DNA of 12,718 nt from a bacterium. GTDB lineage: Bacteria > UBP15 > UBA6099 > JAJRTR01. The notes below the pieces were generated by a model, which saw only the letters and a program-made list of their open reading frames with translations, searched no databases and was not told where the DNA came from. The DNA is taken from the NCBI GenBank assembly GCA_024278215.1, contig JAJRTR010000016.1:1-12718 (forward strand). Direction: 5' to 3'. Shown in pieces: positions 1 to 10,512 of the stretch. Position 1 is the stretch's first letter; every line of letters begins with the position of its first letter. A program made the position numbers and the translations under genes.

Positions 1-174
1 CAATTGCAAAATTATGTTCGTAGCGAGGTCGAGCTAAATTGTTCGGAGCAAGGCGGAGGTGTAAAATCCTCGCAGGCGTACTTGTAGAGTACGTCGAGGA
101 CGATTTTGTGCCGACAACGCAGCTATGGACAATAGCCGCCGCCCGCAGCAGAATCAGAATTTTGCAATTGGCTC
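1..174 (-). repeat. R1 element copy A (MITE-like, terminal inverted repeats), cut by the window edge
   Basis: First of three copies of a ~178-bp element, here in the opposite orientation to copies B (5509-5685) and C (10291-10468). The right end shows the terminal repeat CAGAATTTTGCAATTGGCTC (155-174). The left end starts at CAATTGC, so about four terminal bases lie outside the window. Aligned with B and C it is alike over the whole length, including the block near 68-105 with a central hairpin around GTACTTGTAGAGTAC. One strand stays open here (reading KILAGVLVEYVEDDF), but copy B breaks that frame, so I do not call a gene. No transposase is present; a non-autonomous element is the likeliest reading, by inference. 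Confidence 0.85.
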
Positions 175-5015: not shown

Positions 5016-5230
5016 ACTTCATTACCTCCCGTACAAAATGTTCAGTCGCAATCATTTTATATCATTGACGGAACAGTGTCCATTTTATAATTCCCGTGCG
5101 ATTATCAGGTGTGCGACATGAAAGGGAAGGGCAGTTGTATTAAGGTGAGCTACTGTAGATAATTGATAGCGGAAGTTGTAGGCACTTATCGTGCGCCATA
5201 AGCAACAACATGTGGACGCGGGGCTTTCAA

Positions 5231-5420
5231 TTCCAGGCGTTTCCAAGGTGGACCTTGGAAACCATAAAAAATAGCCCATGGGAACGATGAAGACCGGTGT
5301 GGACAAGTGTGAGTACGATCACTGTGGAAATGATGAAACCCTGTGTGCCGCGATCAAACTATAGACCATGTGCCGTGCTCGAACCGCTTTTGTTTGGGCA
5401 CGAAAATGAGACCTGTTTGT
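5231..5420 (+). repeat. R2 mosaic repeat copy c, with a perfect 10-bp-arm palindrome
   Basis: It contains GGCGTTTCCAAGGTGGACC (also in copy b), GTGTGGACAAGTGTGAGT (also in copy a), two forms of TGTGTGCCG/TGTGCCGTGCT (as in b) and GGGCACGAAAATGAGACCTG (in all three). So it holds modules found separately in a and b. At 5240-5261, TTTCCAAGGT-GG-ACCTTGGAAA is a perfect inverted repeat. About 90 bases later comes R1 copy B in the same relative order as R2a to R1 copy A. The stretch 5016-5230 holds the GH84 upstream region with no gene and no clear promoter. Confidence 0.75.
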
Positions 5421-5508
5421 TTAGGGCTCCCCCGGGTTAGGGCTGCCGGCTGAATATCCGGATGCGCCTGGGGATTTTACGGTCCGTTTTCTCCCGAAAT
5501 TCTCTTTC

Positions 5509-9342: not shown

Positions 9343-10311
9343 ATGGCAAAGTTCATAAAAAACACAAATTATATGACCTTTAAAGGCATCGAATCGGAGC
9401 TTCACGACCTTGTTTCTCAATCGGAGATTCCCGCTGAGATTATCACGCTTGGTCATTCGGTGGAAGAGCGTCCAATATATGGGATATGTTTCGGAGACGG
9501 CGACCACAGGAAACCGGAACTGCTTTATTACGCATTAACTCATTCAATGGAATATGTAGGAAATGCGGCGCTGATGGAAACAATGAGAAGGCTTTCACAG
9601 CACAACGGAGCGGCGGAACATGCAGAAAAAATCGAGAAGATGAATGTTTGGATGATACCTGTTCTGAACCCGGACGGATACGTGAAAATCGAGGAACAAC
9701 TCGGCAGGCGGCTGGGATTTGCCGCAGGTAGAAAAAATGCACGTGGCGTTGACCTGAACAGGAATTTTCCTGTGGCTTTCTATCATATTCCCAGATCGAT
9801 ATTCGCCGGCAGCCCTGTTAAAGCTTCACCATATTACAGGGGCGCATCACCATGTTCAGAACCCGAGTCGCAGGTGTTCAGGGATTTCATACTCGGGCAC
9901 AATATAAAAATGTCGTTATCATTCCACAGTTTCGGCGGTGCGTTGCTTTTTCCCTATTCTTACACAAAAAAGAAATGCCGTGATTACGATTTATTCGTGC
10001 AGATATGTGAGGAAATGACGCATCGTCAGGAAAATCCTTACTCGGTCAAGCCGGGCTGTGATCTGTATAACGCCAATGGAGAAATGGAAGACTGGCTGTA
10101 CGACGAATGCAGGATACTTGCACTTTGCATGGAGATCGGAAAGATCGGTTTCAATCTCGAGTATCCCGCCACATGGCTCAACCCTTTCTACTGGGCGAAT
10201 CCTTATGATCCGAGAGCCGAACTCGATAACATAACACCTGCGGCACTTCACCTCATTGACACACTGTATAATATGTTTGTTAAGCCTTTCGAGCCAATTG
10301 CAAAATTCTGA
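9343..10311 (+). CDS. M14-family zinc carboxypeptidase-like peptidase
   Basis: The 322-residue product has the M14 set: HxxE in THSMEYVGN (H67, E70), MIPVLNPDGY (104-113), GVDLNRNFPV (135-144, with the N-R pair that binds the substrate C-terminus), third zinc ligand H195 in SLSFHSFGGALLFPY, and the likely catalytic Glu E264 in LCMEIGKIG. The family cleaves C-terminal residues from peptides or cell-wall peptides. No signal peptide is visible, so it appears cytoplasmic. ATG 9343 is preceded by AAGGGA directly and GGA further up; neither site is ideal. The last residues, EPIAKF, and the TGA stop lie in the left terminal repeat of R1 copy C, so the C-terminus was set by the element; the original end may have been different. 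Confidence 0.9.
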   Translation: MAKFIKNTNYMTFKGIESELHDLVSQSEIPAEIITLGHSVEERPIYGICFGDGDHRKPELLYYALTHSMEYVGNAALMETMRRLSQHNGAAEHAEKIEKMNVWMIPVLNPDGYVKIEEQLGRRLGFAAGRKNARGVDLNRNFPVAFYHIPRSIFAGSPVKASPYYRGASPCSEPESQVFRDFILGHNIKMSLSFHSFGGALLFPYSYTKKKCRDYDLFVQICEEMTHRQENPYSVKPGCDLYNANGEMEDWLYDECRILALCMEIGKIGFNLEYPATWLNPFYWANPYDPRAELDNITPAALHLIDTLYNMFVKPFEPIAKF

Positions 10312-10468
10312 TTCGGCTGCGATCGGCTGCAATTGTCCATAGCTGTGTTGTCGGCACTAAATCATCCTCAACGTACTCGGCGAGTACGCCTGCGGGGATT
10401 TTGCACCTCCGCCTTGCTTCTGAAAATTTCGCTTGACCTCGCTACGAACAGAATTTTGCAATTGGCTC
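10291..10468 (+). repeat. R1 element copy C, best preserved, with perfect 20-bp terminal inverted repeats
   Basis: GAGCCAATTGCAAAATTCTG (10291-10310) is the exact reverse complement of 10449-10468. The central hairpin is CGTACTC-GGC-GAGTACG. Between ends and centre, the two halves still match in patches when one is reverse-complemented (TTCG, GCGA, AAATC and others), so the whole element reads as an old long palindrome. It overlaps the 3' end of the carboxypeptidase gene by 21 bases. TTCGAG occurs at both outer junctions, but no target duplication is certain. Confidence 0.9.
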
Positions 10469-10512
10469 ATTCGAGTAATAATTCATGGGGCAATTCCGGT
10501 AACACGGCTTTT

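Follow-up and report, generated by a model that had tools for sequence, protein, structure and literature searches.

Prokaryotic MITEs are elements of less than 500 bp with no transposase inside, terminal inverted repeats (TIRs) of about 4–30 bp and flanking direct repeats; they also form a stable stem-loop, insert into AT-rich intergenic targets, carry the same ends as an autonomous IS and are typically AT-rich themselves (PMC10969869). Copy numbers are in the tens for Chunjie and QMITE, above 120 for Correia and up to 711 for ERIC in Photorhabdus (PMC10969869). The Chunjie MITE of Geobacter uraniireducens measures 178–235 bp, with 37 further copies and 57 partial ones (PMC10969869). The Correia (NEMIS) elements of Neisseria are about 100–200 bp long, with 24-bp TIRs, more than 120 copies and a long stem-loop transcript (PMC10969869, PMC2229807). 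ERIC of the Enterobacteriaceae is 127 bp long (RU-1, PMC2759123), with a TIR of only 7 bp and TA termini (PMC2229807).

The element described here, R1, was studied from a window of 12,718 nucleotides, the whole of contig C191 in a bacterial genome of 4.55 Mb and 207 contigs. We consider it highly probable that R1 is a MITE, a non-coding near-palindrome of 178–179 bp with 17-bp TIRs that is spread by a DDE-type transposase acting in trans and leaves 4-bp duplications. Its length, the lack of transposase coding within it, its TIRs, its direct repeats (4-bp duplications at 47 of 74 copies, plus empty sites), its stem-loop (z = −6.6) and its insertion into AT-rich intergenic sites (64/74 intergenic) all agree with the class description. 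It departs from it in base composition, the consensus being about half G+C in a genome of 51% G+C, a trait in which AT-richness is typical and not defining. Compared by description, Chunjie resembles R1 in size, conserved TIRs, direct repeats, intergenic location and many truncated relatives, but has about seven times fewer full-length copies. Correia elements share its size, a similar TIR length, high copy number and a long stem-loop, but have TA at their termini (PMC2229807), where R1 has GAG/CTC and a variable 4-bp duplication. ERIC, likewise a high-copy intergenic MITE with stem-loop structure, differs in its TA termini, its 7-bp TIR and its 127-bp length. The copy number of R1 is at the high end for MITEs and not a record. 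R1 adds one well-documented case to a class of elements already known and does not found a class of its own. Its interest is that of a high-copy MITE in a little-sampled lineage, where the duplications are clean, empty sites can be compared and copies decay with no constraint on pairing.

A preliminary description, made from the letters of the window, had proposed three copies, and alignment places all three where it had put them:

1 to 174, minus strand: R1 copy A, 88% identical to copy C over 174 nt, cut by the contig start
5509 to 5685, plus strand: R1 copy B, full length (177 bp), 83% identical to copy C, flanks TTTC/TTTA
9343 to 10311, plus strand: M14 zinc carboxypeptidase gene (Pfam PF00246, E 1.4e-44)
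10287 to 10290, no strand: left copy of the target duplication flanking copy C, TTTC, decayed (3/4 match; 4 bp in the family)
10291 to 10468, plus strand: R1 copy C, full length (178 bp), subfamily c1, 90–100% identical, as query, to the other scored full-length candidates
10291 to 10307, plus strand: left TIR of copy C, GAGCCAATTGCAAAATT, 17 bp in the family and 20 bp in copy C
10452 to 10468, minus strand: right TIR of copy C, 17 bp in the family
10469 to 10472, no strand: right copy of the target duplication flanking copy C, ATTC

Copy A is inverted with respect to B and C and lacks its last 4 bp because the contig starts inside it. Copy C supplies the last codons of the carboxypeptidase gene, E-P-I-A-K-F-stop: the filled frame ends in ...VKPFEPIAKF-stop, while the flanks joined without R1 read ...VKPFE-stop.

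The end GAGCCAATTGCAAAATTCTG has five matches in the window (up to three mismatches), where 200 shuffles gave none. The family consensus has a perfect TIR of 17 bp (GAGCCAATTGCAAAATT) with GAG/CTC termini; one mismatch and then two matching bases come next. The perfect 20-bp ends given in the preliminary description therefore hold for copy C itself and not as a family trait, since alignments show that its TIR reaches 20 bp through a private T-to-G change in the right end. The partial complementarity of the two halves from ends to centre is upheld: the halves of the consensus align far better than shuffled ones, and when the terminal 20 bp are removed the interior still scores 44, where shuffles average about 10 (sd about 6) and never exceed 35. 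The folding energy of copy C is −68.6 kcal/mol (z = −6.6), a value equalled in none of 200 shuffles. The halves presumably derive from an old inverted duplication.

A genome-wide search for the 17-bp end, allowing two mismatches, returned 332 + 330 matches (662) and none with a reversed control, and all 40 of the candidates scored by BLAST, out of 473 at first look, proved to be R1 at 90–100% identity. Many further copies therefore exist, as had been expected from three in so short a stretch. Statistics were drawn from 686 kb of stretches, about 15% of the genome and mostly chosen around R1 copies, which hold 79 full-length copies in two subfamilies (38 and 41), with a median identity to the consensus of 94.9%, and 39 pieces besides. 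Extrapolation by end counts gives about 280 full-length copies, or about 415 copies and pieces, in the genome, the full-length copies making up about 1% of it. Short forms of 46, 106 and 162 bp retain identical 4-bp flanks; later deletion explains these as well as transposition of the short forms does, and sufficiency of the ends is not claimed. Eleven of 44 contig termini examined lie inside R1, a share biased upward by the choice of stretches around R1 matches. The assembly therefore probably contains too few of the near-identical copies; in practice, R1 breaks the assembly up.

Insertion has left a regular mark at the target. Flanks on both sides are available for 74 copies, of which 47 show an exact 4-bp duplication (500 shuffles gave 1.87 on average and 6 at most), and at least three of the four flank bases match in 62, while duplications of other lengths show no comparable excess among the 74. 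The targets are AT-rich and symmetric, Y-WWWW-R, at 34 of the 47 duplicated sites versus 25% of random intergenic sites. Two copies have landed in dispersed repeats of other kinds, and where these repeats lack R1 the 4 bp (TTAC and AAGA) stand once. The first (L030:5166) reads CATCTTAC–R1–TTACGTCTTTTC when filled and CATCTTACGTCTTTTC in an uninterrupted copy of the repeat (L014); the second (L029:1972) reads TTTAAGA–R1–AAGAGGGTATGG and, uninterrupted (L038), CTTAAGAGGGGATGG. Both pairs come from within one genome and from two other repeat families, and this comparison of filled with empty sites, which the preliminary description had called for, confirms the 4-bp target duplication. By a simple purpose-written ORF caller, 64 of the 74 copies are intergenic, 10 overlap a gene edge and no copy is situated far into a gene. 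In gaps between co-directional genes, R1 points the same way as transcription in 14 cases and the opposite way in 14, and the distribution over gap types (28 co-directional, 23 divergent, 8 convergent) roughly tracks the available sequence (61, 31 and 15 kb), so that the scatter between genes noted at the outset is real and random in orientation.

The data presented above are consistent with a model whereby a DDE-type transposase, supplied in trans, would recognise the R1 ends and move copies into AT-rich Y-WWWW-R targets, where staggered cutting and repair would generate the 4-bp duplication. By this route R1 would have reached its present number, about 280 full-length copies belonging to two subfamilies or more. 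Copies persist where their insertion does little harm, between genes or at a gene's last codons, and afterwards decay with no constraint on pairing that could be detected. We infer both the DDE chemistry and the mobilisation in trans, and the movement itself is deduced from one genome of a single strain.

The strong end-to-end fold of copy C (z = −6.6) and the intergenic location of R1 would also suit a conserved structured RNA or cis-regulatory hairpin, such as a terminator or mRNA-processing site, kept by selection at gene junctions, an explanation that we regard as very improbable. No Rfam match reaches the gathering score in the window, the orientation between co-directional genes is evenly split (14/14), gap type shows no strong preference and the copies have target duplications. 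The preliminary description had held that copies always at the same gene junctions in all relatives would point to such an RNA; in six relatives of the same order, neither R1 nor its end was found. Furthermore, paired and unpaired columns are about equally variable (3.75% and 4.58%, p = 0.55, subfamily-diagnostic columns excluded), and double changes at pairs barely exceed independence (16 observed, 10 expected), most of them preserving pairing, as transition-dominated change predicts. Column variation and double changes thus give no sign of selection on the folding of inserted copies, and indicate that the dyad is a property of the source copies from which R1 amplifies. Together, the duplications, the empty sites, the scatter and the lack of R1 in relatives identify a mobile element and not a conserved RNA, and with the copy number they support the MITE-like element first suggested for this window.

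Among mobile elements, a REP/REPIN-type palindrome mobilised by a RAYT (Y1, HUH) transposase instead of a DDE enzyme is similarly high-copy, intergenic and palindromic, and Y1 transposases (PF01797) lay outside the genome search. Y1 transposition leaves no target duplication, whereas that of R1 is a precise 4 bp, and R1, at 178 bp with 17-bp TIRs, does not conform to the 20–40 bp REP unit; we give this origin slightly less credence even than the RNA. Least probable of all is that R1 is the product of another type of mobile unit, a recombinase-inserted cassette or a retroelement, since it has TIRs and a duplication of fixed length and shows no site specificity beyond Y-WWWW-R.

The transposase that would mobilise the R1 MITE was sought in its own genome with six Pfam families: DDE_Tnp_1, DDE_Tnp_1_4, rve, DUF772, DDE_Tnp_1_2 and DDE_5 (PF01609, PF13701, PF00665, PF05598, PF13586 and PF13546). 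PF01609 matched one IS4 (TIR CCAATACCGTTCAGTTAAGC) and two IS1634 transposases, both incomplete there, the right end of one of the two copies being ..GGGAAGTTCAG; PF13701 matched only an IS1380-like relic, and the other four had no matches. None of these loci, in a gapped assembly and with the IS256, IS630, ISL3, IS110, Tn3, Y1 and other families outside the search, shows R1 ends at its boundary; the check for an R1-ended transposase called for in the preliminary description thus returned none, and the mobilisation in trans that it had assumed stays putative.

Several candidates for the parent element were set aside. Inward pairs of ends 1428 bp (L033) and 2317 bp (L044) apart enclose ordinary host genes and end fragments but no transposase, and the IS4 on C200 has a different TIR. 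The IS1634 on C48/C14 has the right end ..AAGTTCAG, an R1 copy a few bp beyond it being read as coincidence, and on C44, where an IS1380 relic has an R1 copy nearby, the far side of the relic shows no R1-like end. Viral contigs with the 16-mer gave 12 single matches with no inverted partner end, read as chance. Plasmid and phage records held no match to copy C, and a search of published text turned up neither the end sequence nor a close variant of it. The R1 transposase is lost, unassembled or of a family outside the six searched.

The exact 20-bp end of R1 occurs in at least one other record among the matches listed in the genome collection, a Nitrospirae MAG (Nitrospirae bacterium nDJH14bin7, G041). 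This genome has 14 matches to the R1 17-mer with at most two mismatches (reversed control 0), several of which are paired ends of elements of about 160–200 bp whose ends match those of R1 fully or almost so:

C370:3005 to 3202: 198-bp MITE sharing 16 bp of its ends with R1, duplication TATA
C135:5525 to 5721: MITE, duplication GTAG
L089:1356 to 1517: MITE of 162 bp, duplication ATAA

These elements are like R1 in their TIR, the first 16 bp being identical in the best copy and another end identical over 20 bp, and in the 4-bp length of their duplications (TATA, ATAA, GTAG). They are unlike it in their interior, a dispersed CTGGATTCCCG...CGGGAATGAC repeat unrelated to R1, and BLAST of one against the other found nothing in common beyond the 16-bp end. 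Of nine PF01609 transposase matches in G041, none is bounded by the R1 end. The same ends and 4-bp duplications around unrelated interiors indicate that ends and duplication length form a module common to the phyla, and, from sequence comparison, the kind of transposase that would mobilise both is probably common to them and crosses phyla. A bolder proposal, which we put forward tentatively and think rather unlikely as it stands, is that one cross-phylum transposase lineage has both R1 and the Nitrospirae MITE as its cassettes and moves unrelated interiors with only 16–20 bp of end in common. If true, one IS group would account for dispersed repeats in several bacterial phyla, the CTGGATTCCCG...CGGGAATGAC repeat among them. 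The end common to another phylum provides a concrete sequence handle for finding this kind of transposase.

Other repeats were observed in the same genome. At four sites (L071:863, L018:7264, L019:2161 and L014:9999) R1 is represented by its first ~53 bp, joined each time to a slightly varying form of one hairpin, CCGGATTTCTCACAAAGGAATCCGG, which suggests an element of chimeric origin or a break point that recurs. A second dispersed family, containing GCCGGAACCAAACAGG and TTCAGCATTTCTTTACCATCCTG, lies in the window at 185–367, 1519–1739 and 5228–5441 in both orientations, two of its copies adjoining R1 copies A and B. A 143-bp unit at 388–530, with 20-bp inverted ends TGATTCGTGTATAATAAGTC (19/20) and related sequence in L052, L023, L025 and L087, is probably another MITE. 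The IS4 on C200 (G000:C200, L053 1019–2516) is apparently complete. Its end CCAATACCGTTCAGTTAAGC is similar to that of a short repeat dispersed in the same genome (CCAATACCGTTTACTTAAGAG; L038, L039, L035, L028 and L071); by this resemblance the two are likely an IS/MITE pair. Contigs C14 (G000:C14:1–441) and C48 (1–1355), covered by L033 and L068, both start at the same base inside an IS1634 transposase, the C14 copy having an internal deletion, and this is a multi-copy IS collapsed in the assembly.
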